From contig JAGGXR010000159.1 in assembly GCA_021162935.1 (NCBI GenBank), positions 1-58,750 on the forward strand: a stretch of DNA of 58,750 nucleotides, read 5' to 3'. The DNA comes from Deltaproteobacteria bacterium (lineage in GTDB: Bacteria > Myxococcota_A > Polyangia > HGW-17 > SLPX01). The notes under the pieces were generated by a model that ran no database searches, was not told the origin of the DNA, and saw nothing but the letters and a program-made list of their open reading frames with translations. This document shows, one piece after another, positions 10,891 to 20,059 of the stretch (the stretch's first letter is position 1; every line of letters begins with the position of its first letter). A program made the translations under genes and the position numbers.

Positions 10891-10971
10891 GCAATAATAC
10901 GCGGGTAGGCGATGCGTATCGGTTTGGTTGTTCGTGAATCCGAGTCTTTGAGCGGAAGTCAAGGTGTGGCT

Positions 10972-12702
10972 ATGAGGCGGTTTTTTTTGATTGTGATGGT
11001 GGGTCTATGGTCTCCAGCGGTTCTGGCGGCCGGCAAGGCGGACCTGGTGAAGGCCAAGCGACTCTTTGTCGAAGGCCAGAAGCACTTTCTCAAAGGAGAG
11101 TACCAGAAGTGCGCTGACACGTTTTTGGAGGCCTATCGATACCGACCGTTTGCGGCGTTCTACTACAACGCAGCCGTCTGCTTGGAGAAGTCGCACCAGT
11201 ACGTCAAGGCGGTTTCTTACTTCAAGGAATATATCCATCTCAAGCCGCATGCCGAGGACGTTCCCCTCATCCACAAGCGGATCGCTGCTTTGGCCAAGTT
11301 CATTTCAGCCCAGACGAGTTGTTCAAGTGATGCACAATGCGGGGCCGGGTACCGTTGCGTGACGGGAAAGTGTGTGGCCCTGGGCACCTGCAAGGCGGAC
11401 AGCGCGTGTGGAGCCGGGTACAAGTGTGTCTCGGGGAGGTGTCTTGCCGCTGGTGTCTGCAAGGCGGACAGTGAGTGTGGGGCCGGGTACAAGTGCGTGA
11501 CGGGAAAGTGCGTGGCCCTGGGGGCCTGCAAGGCGGATAGCGAATGCGGGGCCGGGTACAAATGCGTGACGGGTAAGTGTGTGGTCGTGGGCACCTGCAA
11601 GGCGGACAGTGAATGTGGGACTGGGTACCGGTGCCAGTCGGGCAAGTGCCTGGTTGCAGCACCGCCGCACCGGGCTCCGGTGCTCCCCCCCTTGAAGACC
11701 AAAGGGTTGGTGGTCATCGACTCGCAGCCACAGGGTGCGAAGATTTGGCTCAAGGACAAGATGAAGCCTCCCATTGGACTGACCCCCTATCAGGGCACGT
11801 TACCGGCTGGGGATTATATGGTGCTCGTGGAACTCAAGGGCTTCAAACCGTCTCGTCGTCGCATCCACGTCACTCCATCGCGGATGCTGGATCTCTATTT
11901 CGCCTTGAGCCGTGATCTGTACATGGGGTGGGTGGAGGTCACCTCGAATGTTCCGGGGGCCAAGGTGTACGTGGACAACGCCAAGTCCGGAGCCGTCGGG
12001 CGGACGCCCTATAGCGGTTTCCGCAAGCCGGGACTCCATACGTTCTGGGTTTCCAAGGCCGGCTACGTGACCAGGAGGAAGGACGTTCGGGTCATTTCAG
12101 GCAAGACCCACCGGATTTCTTTTCGGCTCACGCGGGTTCGCTATGGTTGGGTCAACCTGGGCGGTAAGGCGACCAAGGGAGCCGTGGTCAAAGTGGATGG
12201 CAAGCAGAGGTGTCGGGCCCCCTGCAAGGTGGTCAAGGTAGCAGCTGGCGGACACCGTCTCACCGTGGTTCGGCCAGGCTACAAGACTCTCGTTGCTCCT
12301 TTCAAGGTGGAGCAGGGGCGGGTGACGGATTTGGCCGTGCGGTTGTACGCAAAGCCGAGTCGGGTGCCGGCCTACGTGGCGTATGGATTCGTCGGGGCGT
12401 TTCTGGCAGGGGCGATCTACAGTGCGGTCCAGGCCAAGAATCTGAAAGACGACTTGGATTCCGAAATCAAGGCGGGCAAACTCGTGGTGAGCACGGACAA
12501 ACGGTTCAAGCAAGGTAAGATCTATTCCGGGGTCGCCGACGGCCTCTTTGGTCTGAGTGCTTTGGTGGGAGCCATGGCTCTCTATTACCAGTTTCGTAAC
12601 ACGGGACCGAAGTCGAAGCTCACCTTTACGATTCACGGGGTGAGCATGACGCCGCAGGTTGGGTTGGGAACCGTTGCGCTTGGTGGCACGTTTGACTTTT
12701 GA
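10972..12702 (+). CDS. TPR / Cys-rich-repeat / PEGA envelope protein
   Basis: This 576-residue protein has a signal peptide (ending near AVLAA), a TPR-like helical region (about 22-110) with F-V-E-G-Q-K-H-F-L-K-G-E-Y, and five tandem 23-residue Cys-rich units (about 117-231) of the type C-K-A-D-S-E-C-G-A-G-Y-K-C. A PEGA beta-domain follows near L-V-V-I-D-S-Q-P-Q-G-A-K, with two or three further PEGA-like copies to about residue 460, and finally a membrane helix (about 467-487). PEGA domains are surface-associated in many bacteria. The ATG at 10972 follows AAGGTG; an earlier in-frame start has no signal peptide at its N-terminus. The FG-GAP gene follows after 22 bp, so they are probably one operon. 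The gene at 49917 has a similar TPR-PEGA-membrane plan. Confidence 0.85.
   Translation: MRRFFLIVMVGLWSPAVLAAGKADLVKAKRLFVEGQKHFLKGEYQKCADTFLEAYRYRPFAAFYYNAAVCLEKSHQYVKAVSYFKEYIHLKPHAEDVPLIHKRIAALAKFISAQTSCSSDAQCGAGYRCVTGKCVALGTCKADSACGAGYKCVSGRCLAAGVCKADSECGAGYKCVTGKCVALGACKADSECGAGYKCVTGKCVVVGTCKADSECGTGYRCQSGKCLVAAPPHRAPVLPPLKTKGLVVIDSQPQGAKIWLKDKMKPPIGLTPYQGTLPAGDYMVLVELKGFKPSRRRIHVTPSRMLDLYFALSRDLYMGWVEVTSNVPGAKVYVDNAKSGAVGRTPYSGFRKPGLHTFWVSKAGYVTRRKDVRVISGKTHRISFRLTRVRYGWVNLGGKATKGAVVKVDGKQRCRAPCKVVKVAAGGHRLTVVRPGYKTLVAPFKVEQGRVTDLAVRLYAKPSRVPAYVAYGFVGAFLAGAIYSAVQAKNLKDDLDSEIKAGKLVVSTDKRFKQGKIYSGVADGLFGLSALVGAMALYYQFRNTGPKSKLTFTIHGVSMTPQVGLGTVALGGTFDF
11320..11664 (+). repeat. Five 69-bp tandem coding repeats
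   Basis: Units begin at 11320, 11389, 11458, 11527 and 11596, each encoding 23 residues with four Cys. The first is the most diverged, and the later ones are very similar at the DNA level, so unit number could change by slippage or recombination. Confidence 0.9.
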
Positions 12703-14152: not shown

Positions 14153-14167
14153 ATGGGAGGGGAAATC

Positions 14168-15523
14168 ATGCCTGGTGACGTGCCGCTGATTCGGCACATC
14201 GATCCATTCGAAGATCCATATCTTAGCATGGCAGCAAAGAAGTCGCGACAGGAGTATCGCGACCTCTATCGGCGGATTTTCGATGAGTTTCCCAAGAAGT
14301 TTCGGGAACTGGTGCGTCAGCAACTCGATGAATACGACGATCGGGTGGTGGCGCTGCTCAGCGACCCGTGGGCTTTGGTGGATTGGGGCCGGGCGGTGGC
14401 CAATGCTGCCGACATGGCGTCCTTGTGGTTGGGATTCAGCCGAGGGATGCTCAATCAGTGGCACGACGAGCGGGCGAAGATGGAACTCCGCGAACCGTCG
14501 CTGGACTTCAAACTCGGCGAGAACGTGGGCAATACGCCCAAGGAAATCGTGTATTCTTCCGAGTTGCTCGACGTCTATCGATACCTGCCCACCGACACTG
14601 TCCATCGCACGCCCTTTCTGATGTTTTACTCGTGGATCAATGCCTATTGGATTTTGGATCTGACCGAAGAAGTGAGTTTGATGCGGCATCTCCGGGACAA
14701 GGGTATCGAGACCTTCATCACGGCCTGGAAGATTCCCGAGTCGCAGACCGGGCGGCAGGCCTCGCTCGACCGGTATCTTCGCGAAGGTCTCGCGGCCATC
14801 GATCGGGTTTTGGATGTGACCGGCCAGCAGGAACTCGGCATTGGAGGCTACTGCATCGGTGGCGTGGTGGCCGACATCCTGGCGGCTTTGCGTTCATCCC
14901 AGGTCCGTTGCCTGGTGAACTTGGCGACCGCGCTCGACACCATGGCAGGCGAGCAGGGGGCCGGGGCCTTCGGCGCCTTCACCAATTTCGAGATCGCCAA
15001 CTTACAGGAATATCTGGACAAGCACGAAGGAGGCTTTCCCAAGAAGGCGTTCGAAGAGTTTTTCGATAACGTGAAGCCCAAGCGAGCGGTTCGGTCCTTT
15101 TTTTCTCGCTATGTGTATGGCGACACGGCGCCCATGGACCCGATCACCTTCTGGAATCGAAAGAGCGCCAAACGGATCATGCCGGTCCACGCCGAATTCC
15201 TCCGTCGTATCTACAACGACAATGAACTGGCCGAAGGCACCATGTCCGCCATGGGACACAAAGTGGACATGAAGCATTTGACAGCGCCTGCCCTCATCGT
15301 CATGGCTGAATTCGATCACATCGTGCCCATGGCCTGTGCCCTGCGTACGGCGCACCTGATCGGGACGAAGCCGCAGGATCAGGACAACGTGGTGGTCCGG
15401 GGTGGCCATGTGCGTGCCATTGCCAATGCGCAGCTGAACAGGACGATTTCCCAGTTCTTGGCCGACAGGTTGGGTCCCAAGGATCGCAGAGCACCTCACC
15501 GGATCGTCGACCAAACTTCATAG
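14168..15523 (+). CDS. phaC: Poly(3-hydroxyalkanoate) synthase-like protein
   Basis: This alpha/beta-hydrolase of 451 residues has the PHA-synthase layout: a helical N-terminus, an entry W-I-N-A-Y-W-I-L-D-L at the start of the catalytic domain, and the modified lipase box GGYCIGG with nucleophile Cys229. The acid is Asp383 in F-D-H-I-V-P and the base His414 in GGHV. PHA synthases join hydroxyacyl-CoA units to form storage polyester. The length is between class III (about 355) and class I (about 580) enzymes. The start at 14168 has GGAGGGG 6 bases upstream. It converges with a phosphotransacylase-butyrate kinase fusion whose acyl-phosphate/acyl-CoA chemistry could supply or drain the substrate pool. 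An acyltransferase or hydrolase relative of PhaC is the alternative. Confidence 0.82.
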   Translation: MPGDVPLIRHIDPFEDPYLSMAAKKSRQEYRDLYRRIFDEFPKKFRELVRQQLDEYDDRVVALLSDPWALVDWGRAVANAADMASLWLGFSRGMLNQWHDERAKMELREPSLDFKLGENVGNTPKEIVYSSELLDVYRYLPTDTVHRTPFLMFYSWINAYWILDLTEEVSLMRHLRDKGIETFITAWKIPESQTGRQASLDRYLREGLAAIDRVLDVTGQQELGIGGYCIGGVVADILAALRSSQVRCLVNLATALDTMAGEQGAGAFGAFTNFEIANLQEYLDKHEGGFPKKAFEEFFDNVKPKRAVRSFFSRYVYGDTAPMDPITFWNRKSAKRIMPVHAEFLRRIYNDNELAEGTMSAMGHKVDMKHLTAPALIVMAEFDHIVPMACALRTAHLIGTKPQDQDNVVVRGGHVRAIANAQLNRTISQFLADRLGPKDRRAPHRIVDQTS

Positions 15524-15603: not shown

Positions 15604-17823
15604 TCAGAGACGATCGCGCAGTGGTTCGTATCGTTTGGCTGCTTCGATACCGCGAAGGACCCGGAGTGCTCCATCGCGCAGCGCCTCCATTTCCCGTTCG
15701 CCCGGATAGAACGTGATGGGGGTTCCAAGCTGGCCGAGGTCACGCTGGAGCGTGGTTCGGAGCCGCTCGGATCGGGCCATGCCGCCGGTGACGATGATCT
15801 GATCGACCGGCTCGCCAGAGAACTTTGGGACGCCGCTGCTGATCTCAGCGGCAATCTGTTCCATCATGGCTTGGAAGACCACCTTGGCCTGTTCGTCGCC
15901 TTGTTCGATGCGGCGTTCCACGTCGCGCAGGTCGTTCGTTCCCAGGTAGGAAACGAGGCCACCTCCGCCGATGAGTCTTGCTTCGACCTGCATGCGGGTC
16001 AGACCAGAAAAGCACAGTTCGATGAGGTCCATGCCGGGCAGGGTTCCGGCCCTATTGGGAGACATGGGGCCGTCGTACAGAGCGTTTTTCACTTTGACGC
16101 AGCGTCCCTTGCGGTGGCATCCGACGCTGATGCCTCCGCCCAGATGGGCCACGATCAGGTTCATGTCCTGGTATTCCCTGCCGTGCTTTTCCGCGTAGAG
16201 TTTCGCCGCCGCCTTTTGGCTCAACGCGTGCCAGGCCGCCTCTTGCTGGGATTCCTTGAGCCCGGTGATACGGCTCGTTTCATCCAATTCGTCCACTACT
16301 GGTGGGTCCACCACGAAAGCGTGGATGCCCACCGACGCAGCGAGTGTGCTGGCCAAGATGGCGCCGAGATTCGAGGCGTGTCGGCCTGCGACCTGTCTGC
16401 GCAGGTCGTCGATCATGCGATCGTCCACCTGGTAGGTCCCACTGGTGACCGGTAGCAACAGTCCACCGCGACCCACGATGGCGTCTAATTCCTGGATGGT
16501 CGTGTTCGCATGGGTCAAAAAATCGGTGATGGCTTCGGTACGGAAGGGAATTTGATCCTCGAGCTTTCGGTACGACTTGAGTTTGTCTGGATCATGATGG
16601 ACTTCGGTGCGATGGATTTGTTCTTCACCTTCGAATAGAGCCAGTTTGGTGGATGTGGAGCCTGGGTTGATGGCAAGGACTCGGTACCTTGGGAAGAATC
16701 GGTCGTTGAGGGTGTGTTGGTAGCGGCTCGATTTGAAGAGTTGGAGCAACAGGGCCTTGGCGCCCAGGATGACTTCGTCGGGCGTGCTCTGACGACTGAA
16801 GTCCAAGGCTCGTGCGTCGAGGCCGCCGATCATCAGAACGGTCTGGGCCTGAGGAAATCGGATCGAGTACAGGTGGTAGAGCATGTTGCCCACGTCCAGA
16901 TACGGAGCAATGAGCACGTTGCTGTGACCGGCAACGGGGTGGTCGTCCAGAGTTGCCTTGAGCTTGGTTCGGGCCGCTGTTTCGGAGATGGCCACGCTGA
17001 CCTGGAGTTCGGCCTCGATGGAGATGCTGCGATACCGGGCATTTTCCGACTGCAGTTCTGCGAGGTGCCTGGCGATGATGGGTTCGGCCTGACGGATACG
17101 TCTCACCGAAGGGCCGTCTCCGGAGCCTCGCGTGGAGTAGGAGAGGAGCGCTCCGTGGATCTGGCCCAAGACGTCTGGCGGAATGATGTCCCGCATGGTC
17201 CTACAGGATCCCACCGCGATGTCGGCCAGCGCTTCCGAAGAGGGCTCGGGGTTGAGCGCCACATCGGCGAACAGGACGAGATTTTGGTCATAGACCCCTT
17301 GGGGATGATCATCGGGCAGGGCAAACAGGGCCATTTCGTAGACAGTGCCTGTCTTGGGCAGGAGTCTGAGACAGGGCAGGAAGAACTCGCGGGATGTGTG
17401 GGTCAGCCCACCAAGGACCGCATCGGCATAACCGAGTTTTACCAGGAGAATGGCTTGGTAGATGGGGTTCTGGAGACGACTGCGGGCCTCATCGAGCGAC
17501 ATTTCCCATCGATGTCCTTTGCTTTTCTCACAGAGTCGGCCAGCCATTTGAGCCAGGAGGGACTCGTCCAGATCAGAGCCATCGGGAGCCAAAATTTTGG
17601 TTCGGTTGAGGAGCCGTTTCGTCGAGCCTTCCAGGTTCAGGTTTTGCGATAGGGTCTGTTGCACGCTGGAGCGATGGGCGAGCAGGACCACGTTCGTGAA
17701 CTTGAGCAGCCGAGAGGCCGCCATCAAGACCCTTGGATCGTCTCCTTCGGGAAAGATGATGGTCGGCTTTGGTTTCGCCTCACTGCGAAGCTGCGCGTCG
17801 ATGCAACCCTCGATATCGAACAT
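15604..17823 (-). CDS. Phosphate acetyl/butyryltransferase - butyrate kinase fusion
   Basis: This 739-residue protein has two complete enzymes in one chain. Residues 1-365 are a phosphotransacylase: G-Y-A-D-A-V-L-G-G-L, LVLFADVALNPEPSSEALAD, LLSYSTRGSGDG and V-A-G-H-S-N-V-L-I are all family signatures. Residues 381-739 are a butyrate kinase of the acetokinase fold, with RVLAINPGSTSTKLALF at the phosphate-binding start, N-A-L-Y-D-G-P-M-S-P-N-R and L-V-S-Y-L-G-T-N-D. Together they would convert acyl-CoA plus phosphate to acyl-phosphate and then to acid plus ATP, or the reverse. In clostridia these are two adjacent genes. The ATG follows GGAGG by 8 bases. It is encoded alone and faces phaC. Whether the acyl group is acetyl, butyryl or branched cannot be read from the sequence. 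Confidence 0.9.
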   Translation of the reverse strand: MFDIEGCIDAQLRSEAKPKPTIIFPEGDDPRVLMAASRLLKFTNVVLLAHRSSVQQTLSQNLNLEGSTKRLLNRTKILAPDGSDLDESLLAQMAGRLCEKSKGHRWEMSLDEARSRLQNPIYQAILLVKLGYADAVLGGLTHTSREFFLPCLRLLPKTGTVYEMALFALPDDHPQGVYDQNLVLFADVALNPEPSSEALADIAVGSCRTMRDIIPPDVLGQIHGALLSYSTRGSGDGPSVRRIRQAEPIIARHLAELQSENARYRSISIEAELQVSVAISETAARTKLKATLDDHPVAGHSNVLIAPYLDVGNMLYHLYSIRFPQAQTVLMIGGLDARALDFSRQSTPDEVILGAKALLLQLFKSSRYQHTLNDRFFPRYRVLAINPGSTSTKLALFEGEEQIHRTEVHHDPDKLKSYRKLEDQIPFRTEAITDFLTHANTTIQELDAIVGRGGLLLPVTSGTYQVDDRMIDDLRRQVAGRHASNLGAILASTLAASVGIHAFVVDPPVVDELDETSRITGLKESQQEAAWHALSQKAAAKLYAEKHGREYQDMNLIVAHLGGGISVGCHRKGRCVKVKNALYDGPMSPNRAGTLPGMDLIELCFSGLTRMQVEARLIGGGGLVSYLGTNDLRDVERRIEQGDEQAKVVFQAMMEQIAAEISSGVPKFSGEPVDQIIVTGGMARSERLRTTLQRDLGQLGTPITFYPGEREMEALRDGALRVLRGIEAAKRYEPLRDRL

Positions 17824-18235
17824 GGATTTCCTCCAGGGCTGGTGGGTCGTCGCTCGATTTCGCCGGTCGACCAGGTCGGCTGTGGACCAGGGTCATTCCA
17901 TGGGCTGTGATATTGAACCGGCCCTGGACGATGTGCAAGCAATTCACCGCAAGGCAGCATCCGGTTCGTGGCACGGCCCGAAAGCGGCGGATGGACGGCG
18001 CGTTCGTGTCGTCGTGTGTCGGACCCAAAGATGACTCCGAGTTCATGGTTGCCTTTGGACGTCCAGGAGATCGAGGCTCCAAAATGCTGGACATCGTTGC
18101 AGGAAAGTCCCTATCATCGAAAACGAGTTTCGCGGTTGTCCGTTGTGCGACATGGATGCAGCTGCAGGACTCGTTGAAAATGGCCTCGGGACGGGAAGAA
18201 TCGTCTCGAGAAAGCCGTTTCGGTGGAAGGGGAAG

Positions 18236-20059
18236 ATGCTGGCGATGCATGTTTTGGGCAGGTTGATTTGCCTTATCGTTTCGCTGTCCGTGGCGACGAT
18301 TGCGTTTGGATTGTCTGGGTGCGCTGAGAAGGGAAAGCCGCTCGTGCCGGGCGTCTGCGGGGACGGCATCCTGAACATCGATGAAGAATGTGACGAGGGC
18401 GATCGCAACAGCGACATCCTGCCGGATCGATGCCGCACGGACTGCCACAAGCCGTTCTGTGGTGACGCCGTGGTGGATCAAGGTGAGACCTGCGACAGTT
18501 CCGATCTCCACGGTGCAGCCTGTACGGACTATGGTTTTCTCAAGGGCGAGGTGACCTGTGGCTCCCATTGCGCCGTGGACCTGTCTGGTTGCTGGACCTG
18601 TGGAGACGGGCTCGCGTCGGGCAAGGAACAATGCGATGGCCAGGATATTCGAGACCTGTCCTGCGCCGACCTGGGGTTCGACGGCGGAACCCTTGCCTGC
18701 GGCTCTGGGTGTGCGTTCGATTTTTCGGGCTGCACGGGTGGCTGCGGCAACGGTGTGCGTGAGGGAGCGGAGGACTGCGACGCGAGCGATGTGGGTGACA
18801 AGCACTGCGCCGACCTGGGTTTCGACGGCGGAACCCTTGCCTGCGGCTCTGGGTGTGCGTTCGATTTTTCGGGTTGCACCGGTGGCTGCGGCAACGGCGT
18901 GGTGGAGGGCGACGAGGTCTGTGACGACGGCAACGACGTGGACTACGATGGATGCAGCCATTGTGTGGGGGGGGACGCAACCTTCGAGGACGTGGTGACC
19001 TGGCTAGCCTGTGAGGCCCCAACCGACGTGACGGCGGCCGATGTGAACGACGACGGGGTGGTGGACCTCGTGGTTGCCTGCGGGGGCGGCACAGACGGAC
19101 AGGGTGGCCTGGCGGTATTGCTGGGTCAGGGACAGGCTGCTTTCGGGGCCCCGCAGTTCTTGGCGTTCCACGTTCCGGTGACATCGGTGAAGACGGCGGA
19201 TCTGAATCGGGACGGTCATGCAGAGGTGGTGGCTGGTTGTTTGTCGACTCCGGACGCCACGGACCAACAGACAGGGGCCGTCGTGGTGGTGGATTTTGCC
19301 GTCGGGTTCGATGCGACATCCCTGTTGCCCTTGGGCGGCGGGGTGACGGACCTCGCCGTGGCGGATTGGAATGGAGACGGTGATCTGGACGTGGTGGCCG
19401 CGGTTCCTTCGCTTCAGCAGCTCGTTCTTTTGGCGGGTGATGGCCAGGGAGGTTTGATTGGGGATTCGTTTCTTTACGTATATGGACTCCCCTCTGCTGT
19501 GGCTGCGGCCGACCTGGATCAGGACGGTGTCATGGACCTTGCAACGGTTCGCCAGCGATATGACGTGACGGTCGTGTTTTTTGGGTTGGGCGGTGGGAGC
19601 TTTTCCGATCCGGCTTACGATTTGGCTGGTGATCGACCCAGTGATGTCGTCGTTTTCTCATTCAATGGTGATTTTATGCCCGACGTGGCGATTGTCAATG
19701 CGGGGGATGGAACGGTCACGACCCTAGTGACCATGGGGCAGGGCCAGCTCGGATTGGGAGGGGTGCTGGAGATGGATCCTGGTATCGTTCGTGCCGCCGC
19801 TGCTTATTTCGATTCGGATAGCCACGGCGATCTCGCTGTGGCGTCGTCGGCCACGGACCAGATCTGGTCGGCGGTCGGCAAGGGGGATGGTTCGTTCGTG
19901 GTTCGCTCGAAGGTGCCGTCCTGCGACTCACCGGTCAGTGTTTTGCCGACGGACCTCAATGGCGATGGGGTGGTGGACCTCGTGACCGCCTGTTCGTTTG
20001 CAGGTACTGTTGGCGTTCATTTGGGTCATGTGGCCGATTCTGGACAAGGAGATCACTGA
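18236..20059 (+). CDS. Cys-rich-repeat / FG-GAP lipoprotein
   Basis: This 607-residue lipoprotein (lipobox L-S-G-C, acylated Cys at 29) has a Cys-rich N-terminal third of four to five disulfide repeats of the myxobacterial type (C-G-N-G-V-x-E-G-x-E-x-C-D). It ends with DDGNDVDYDGCSHC, then has an FG-GAP beta-propeller (about 240-600) with D-V-N-D-D-G-V-V-D-L and D-L-N-G-D-G-V-V-D-L blades. It is probably surface-exposed. The ATG at 18236 was preferred for the GGAAGGGG just upstream; 18245 is a close alternative. Its stop overlaps the start of the next gene (TGATG), so it heads a three-gene operon with a small lipoprotein and a macroglobulin-like protein. Confidence 0.85.
   Translation: MLAMHVLGRLICLIVSLSVATIAFGLSGCAEKGKPLVPGVCGDGILNIDEECDEGDRNSDILPDRCRTDCHKPFCGDAVVDQGETCDSSDLHGAACTDYGFLKGEVTCGSHCAVDLSGCWTCGDGLASGKEQCDGQDIRDLSCADLGFDGGTLACGSGCAFDFSGCTGGCGNGVREGAEDCDASDVGDKHCADLGFDGGTLACGSGCAFDFSGCTGGCGNGVVEGDEVCDDGNDVDYDGCSHCVGGDATFEDVVTWLACEAPTDVTAADVNDDGVVDLVVACGGGTDGQGGLAVLLGQGQAAFGAPQFLAFHVPVTSVKTADLNRDGHAEVVAGCLSTPDATDQQTGAVVVVDFAVGFDATSLLPLGGGVTDLAVADWNGDGDLDVVAAVPSLQQLVLLAGDGQGGLIGDSFLYVYGLPSAVAAADLDQDGVMDLATVRQRYDVTVVFFGLGGGSFSDPAYDLAGDRPSDVVVFSFNGDFMPDVAIVNAGDGTVTTLVTMGQGQLGLGGVLEMDPGIVRAAAAYFDSDSHGDLAVASSATDQIWSAVGKGDGSFVVRSKVPSCDSPVSVLPTDLNGDGVVDLVTACSFAGTVGVHLGHVADSGQGDH
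18661..18901 (+). repeat. Two near-identical 97-bp coding repeats, 144-bp period
   Basis: 18661-18757 and 18805-18901 differ at about four positions, all but one silent-looking, so the duplication is recent or is homogenised. The 48-residue period equals that of the repeats in the RCC1 lipoprotein at 34398, and the encoded motifs share the same Cys and Gly spacing. Confidence 0.85.

Follow-up and report, generated by a model that had tools for sequence, protein, structure and literature searches.

A natural fusion of a Pta-type phosphotransacylase with a butyrate kinase in a deltaproteobacterium, probably bifunctional, and the apparent loss of one active site in many of its relatives

In this study, we asked whether a gene in a deltaproteobacterial genome really encodes a phosphotransacylase and a butyrate kinase in one chain, and whether such a protein could carry out both reactions. 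The window, that is, the whole stretch of DNA analyzed here, comprises 58,750 nucleotides, in which positions 15604-17823 form a single uninterrupted open reading frame (ORF) of 739 amino acids with an ATG start. This bears out the fused chain of the original prediction and places it on the minus strand, which had not been stated. A Shine-Dalgarno-like GGAGG lies 6 nt upstream of the ATG, and the N-terminal start MFDIE or MFDLE is common to the window protein and its homologues. The features of the gene are as follows.

15604..17823, minus strand: fusion gene, Pta-type phosphotransacylase followed by butyrate kinase, 739 aa (ORF, domain profiles, homologues)
17824..17836, minus strand: probable ribosome-binding site GGAGG, 5' of the ATG (inferred by sequence reading)
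16725..17823, minus strand: N half, approximately residues 1-366, phosphotransacetylase fold (profiles, residue mapping, VIA)
16686..16725, minus strand: linker, approximately residues 367-379, with W/Y..TP.D.FFPR kept in homologues (alignments)
15607..16683, minus strand: C half, approximately residues 381-739, butyrate kinase with intact motifs (TIGR02707, 1saz/1x9j match, motif table, VIA)

The domain limits proposed earlier (residues 1-365 and 381-739) agreed with the profile matches. In the second half, the NCBIfam butyrate kinase model TIGR02707 matched residues 381-730 with 425 bits, above its equivalog cut-off of 289.1, and the Pfam Acetate_kinase family matched residues 532-700. This half was also similar to Thermotoga maritima butyrate kinase 2 (Buk2; 1saz/1x9j; E value 3e-95), with which it shared all of the kinase motifs (NPGSTSTK, RGG, HLGGG, R591, TGG and E711). 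In the first half, PF01515 (PTA_PTB) matched residues 17-347 with 137.9 bits against a Pfam gathering cut-off of 24. The original prediction had drawn its comparison with clostridial Ptb; however, the Pta-type NCBIfam models NF007233 and TIGR00651 scored 134 and 126 bits, respectively, versus only 22-25 bits for the Ptb models (TIGR02706, 22 bits against a cut-off of 410.5). Judged by these scores, "Pta-type phosphotransacylase" is the most fitting name for the first half. Since its score on TIGR00651 lay below the curated Pta cut-off (311 bits), it was not filed as a Pta orthologue. Assignment to Ptb was rejected on the model scores and on a lower structural Z score (27.3 for Ptb 7vg9 vs 33.8 for Pta). 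The latter came from an AlphaFold2 model of the window protein, with 15 fusion sequences as input (mean pLDDT 76, pTM 0.69; weak stretches at approximately residues 507-531 and 582-596). Residues 1-370 of this model matched Pta structures (1qzt, 6iow) and MaeB-PTA with VIA Z scores of about 34, the two folds fitting equally well (34.0 for MaeB-PTA and 33.8 for Pta 1qzt), and residues 379-734 matched Buk2 with a Z score of 32.7.

The same fusion, in the same order, was found as an uninterrupted ORF in at least 30 other genomes; in two more (G393 and G437) a contig end cuts the gene short. The total is thus at least 33 fusion genes (31 complete and two truncated). Thus the fusion is genuine and natural, as had been proposed, but not unique to this genome. 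Within the phylum, it was encoded by 11 of 379 genomes, window genome included. Complete copies were present in relatives from the same order or class, namely G396 (62% identity), G394 (59%), G418, G413 and G536. In a scan covering 84,980 species genomes, at least 16 further loci matched end to end, in several strains of Geothrix and other Holophagaceae, two Krumholzibacteriia, two Spirochaetales, one member of Elusimicrobia and one unclassified genome (one scan locus, L053, is the same metagenome-assembled genome as G036). Uninterrupted homologues at 39-62% identity carry the linker W/Y..TP.D.FFPR.R(I/V)L, and its core, Y/W..TP.D.FFPR, is present in nearly all fusions, which excludes an overlooked stop codon or a frameshift near residue 370. 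Although Ptb and Buk are often encoded by adjacent genes (e.g., the clostridial loci L054-L063), the idea that two such genes were joined by an assembly or frameshift artefact was rejected as practically untenable, because the complete single-ORF homologues come from independent assemblies, Geothrix isolate genomes among them, and share a conserved linker. No report of a characterized natural fusion of Pta or Ptb with butyrate kinase was found in the open-access literature, in line with the original prediction, nor was any open-access paper found on butyrate kinase in Geothrix. Already in print are the Ack-PduL fusions, the idea of channelling and the dead Pta domain acting as a sensor in MaeB.

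A tree of the Pta halves, rooted on Pta, and a tree of the Buk halves, rooted on stand-alone Buk, agreed that all fusions form one lineage, which splits into clade A (nine genomes: window, G396, G394, G393, G418, G413, G437, G035 and G200) and clade B (at least 24 genomes). Two stand-alone Buks (family f29; L019:1483-2589 and L020:1471-2589) were nested within clade B in the Buk tree, and no remnant of a Pta half was found in the flanking sequence examined; they are most simply read as products of loss of the Pta half.

We then compared the Pta active site across the family, using residue numbers of Methanosarcina thermophila Pta (MtPta) mapped onto the fusions by alignment. In Porphyromonas gingivalis Pta (PgPta), D309, S311 and R312 (MtPta D307, S309 and R310) are essential by mutagenesis, and replacement of the D316 equivalent (D318A) leaves only 11% of activity (PMC6461089); Q244 and K257 of the partner subunit contact CoA (PMC9706017). 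In the window protein, the catalytic residues D307, S309 and R310 are retained as D341, S343 and R344, and Q244 and K257 as Q274 and K287. Four other CoA-contact or active-site positions are changed, including that of the general base D316: K283 to H (H317), Q286 to S (S320), R287 to I (I321) and D316 to E (E350). Hence the earlier statement that both enzymes are complete and keep their signatures holds for the kinase motifs and for five Pta positions, but not for these four. All nine clade A proteins keep Q244, K257, D307, S309 and R310; at position 316 the window protein has E, G396 has Q and the other seven have D. In clade B, by contrast with the window and clade A, the catalytic residues have been lost as expected of a MaeB-like dead domain: in all 24 listed proteins Q244 is replaced by K, K257 by Y or H, and S309 by A or P, and in 23 of the 24 R310 is replaced, mostly by M (one protein has R and one K). 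D307 is kept in all fusions of both clades. The clade B transacylase site is, judged from these replacements, probably dead.

The kinase half showed a different distribution. Its motifs are intact throughout clade B and in the window, G396, G394, G393, G035 and G200. Three clade A members (f12) have lost them yet keep the Pta site, with NPGSTSTK changed to NPVAAYTE, SPQNEYTE or SPHREHTE; in the two complete f12 proteins, HLGGG is HLGSG or FVGAG and TGG is TGS or TGA. These are as follows.

L166:5232-7535, L167:3589-5796 and L168:2300-3882: forward fusions (f12) with a degenerate kinase phosphate loop and the Pta site kept

Both halves thus appear intact in six of the 33 listed fusions, window included. 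Given that the intact residues are found in stand-alone Pta and Buk, the simplest history, by parsimony rather than by a reconstruction of ancestral states, would start from a two-site ancestor; clade B would have lost the Pta site once, and f12 the kinase site once. On the best reading, a single fusion would have given rise to the whole family, and the window protein would keep the ancestral two-site state.

We favor, with a probability of roughly 60%, the view that the window protein has two working active sites in one chain and would catalyze acyl-CoA + Pi + ADP <-> acid + CoA + ATP. The Pta-type half would interconvert acyl-CoA + Pi and acyl-phosphate + CoA, and the butyrate kinase half would interconvert acyl-phosphate + ADP and carboxylate + ATP. 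In favor of this view are the retained site-1 residues and kinase motifs, the single ORF, the presence of both folds (AlphaFold2, VIA), the agreement of the two trees, and the lack of a Ptb gene beside the clade A fusions examined and of a stand-alone canonical Pta in the window genome; against it are the N-half score below the Pta cut-off, the changes K283H, Q286S, R287I and D316E, though E for D is a mild one, the lack of an operon that points to a substrate, and possible redundancy with other acyl-kinase enzymes. We infer the activity, its substrate and its direction, as well as any hand-over of acyl-phosphate; the acyl group is probably C4-C5, straight or branched, as suggested by the kinase family only. 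Channelling of acyl-phosphate in the window protein is plausible, but it cannot be the general reason for keeping the fusion, because most relatives have lost one active site; the fusion, retained after such loss, has other uses in them.

Gene neighborhoods were also examined. Deriving the substrate from them failed, as no operon points to one and the neighbors of other fusions are mixed. In the window, a PhaC-like polyhydroxyalkanoate synthase gene (14153-15523, plus strand), below all PhaC class cut-offs, is convergent with the fusion gene; it is not conserved beside the clade A relatives, whose neighborhoods differ. The region is flanked by genes for predicted secreted-type proteins (10912-12702 and 18143-20059, both plus strand) with cysteine-rich repeats and PEGA domains, and DUF4215/FG-GAP repeats. 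Near the fusion lie rpoD/dnaG in G418, and a peptidase gene and an FGE-sulfatase-like gene in G413. In the f63 relatives (L150:8030-14103 and L152), the fusion gene stands at the end of a gene cluster on one strand that also encodes a molybdenum hydroxylase with three subunits, belonging to the xanthine dehydrogenase/4-hydroxybenzoyl-CoA reductase family.

The most serious alternative, though in our opinion an unlikely one, is that the window protein uses its Pta-type half as a MaeB-like sensor of acyl-CoA (or of CoA or acyl-phosphate), or as an oligomerization domain, to control the butyrate kinase. In MaeB, a catalytically dead Pta domain serves as an acetyl-CoA sensor (PMC7902834), and the equal fit of the modeled N half to MaeB-PTA and to Pta, together with the four changed positions, would fit such a role. 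Clade B provides further support: its N half is near Pta and MaeB alike by sequence comparison, and the degenerate Pta half evolves under purifying selection much as the kinase half does (dN/dS 0.01-0.19 and 0.04-0.18, respectively, in clade B pairs), so it must still do something. A true Ptb gene adjoins or lies near 10 of the 24 listed clade B genes, in four of these immediately downstream in the same orientation, and may supply the transacylase activity. The non-catalytic half of many relatives could possibly sense acyl-CoA as in MaeB; dead halves in general are probably retained for ligand sensing or assembly. In the clade B loci (L038-L052, L120-L127 and L169), R133, a site-2 CoA contact in MtPta and PgPta, is invariant and the site-1 residues are lost, whereas clade A shows the opposite, with R133 variable; the clade B pattern could mark a MaeB-like ligand site. 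For the window protein itself, however, the retention of Q244, K257, D307, S309 and R310 here and in all of clade A is hard to explain without transacylase chemistry. In addition, no Ptb gene adjoins any of the clade A fusions examined (some flanks are short), which is what one would expect were this clade to provide its own transacylase.

A less probable explanation is that the fusion serves assembly, in a larger complex that tolerates one dead site and is possibly mixed with a second, reversed fusion. The window genome encodes the following related proteins.

C148:12989-15427 (L128:6662-9100), plus strand: reversed Buk-Ptb fusion, 812 aa, with about 110 extra residues first
C86:32804-35116 (L004:721-3036), minus strand: cNMP-binding - AckA - PduL fusion, 771 aa

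The reversed fusion overlaps the end of an AMP-ligase-like ORF and keeps the SRGDS motif in its Ptb half, but its kinase has IDPHLNFTW in place of NPGSTSTK and is degenerate in G396 too; among the genomes examined, those of f2 and f12 have a reversed kinase with NPGSTSTK intact. Thus, in f1 (window genome and G396) the intact kinase is in the forward fusion; in the f12 genomes with both fusions (G413 and G437), the forward fusion has the degenerate kinase, and NPGSTSTK is found in the reversed one. This reciprocal pattern, and the fact that both halves dimerize as free enzymes, would suit mixed assembly; however, the sample comprises just two genomes per side with both fusions, and in G437 the H.GGG motif of the reversed kinase is changed to QMGGG. 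As for the AckA-PduL protein, the idea that it is special to the window genome was dropped: Ack-PduL fusions occur in 54 of 189 sampled genomes of the phylum and are already published, although, in the listed matches, only the window genome and G155 gave full-length similarity that included the cNMP domain. Buk (C49) and Ptb (C143) also occur here on their own, and no stand-alone canonical Pta was found in this genome; the other acyl-kinase enzymes make redundancy possible.

Returning to a bifunctional window protein, we tentatively propose a broader scheme, in which the fusion serves as a two-enzyme platform that can be reused, its halves having repeatedly been stripped of catalysis and yet remained under selection. 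In several phyla, the clade B Pta half may have turned into an acyl-CoA sensor for an acyl kinase, and the f12 kinase half may have become an ATP-sensing or assembly domain complemented by the Buk-Ptb fusion, with the window protein as a living ancestral bifunctional state. One fusion lineage offers three states (both sites intact, kinase only and transacylase only), which makes channelling versus allosteric control directly testable. Clade B genes, those of cultured Geothrix included, should not be taken to encode the full conversion of acyl-CoA to acid, because their transacylase site is probably dead and a nearby Ptb may provide the activity.

Finally, we compared the window protein with known systems. 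The same two-step chemistry is expected as in clostridial Ptb-Buk, and the C half is a genuine Buk; in contrast, the clostridial enzymes are separate proteins, and the N half resembles Pta (126-134 bits) rather than Ptb (22-25 bits). With Pta (TIGR00651; M. thermophila 1qzt and P. gingivalis 6iow) it shares the fold, D307/S309/R310, Q244 and K257, but it differs in its score below the cut-off, in the changed K283, Q286, R287 and D316, and in the fused kinase. Ack-PduL is likewise a natural fusion of an acyl kinase and a phosphotransacylase for which channelling has been suggested (PLoS Biol 2016, PMC4784909); however, its transacylase has an unrelated fold (PF06130), its kinase is an acetate kinase rather than Buk, and the order is opposite. 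MaeB (PMC7902834) also has a Pta-type domain fused to another enzyme, with a loss of Pta catalytic residues as in clade B, but its partner is a malic enzyme and the Pta domain lies at the C terminus, whereas the catalytic S and R of Pta are still present in the window protein. The C half shares the fold and motifs of T. maritima butyrate kinase 2, with 39-46% identity in structural alignments, but that enzyme, unlike the fused kinase described here, is a stand-alone protein.
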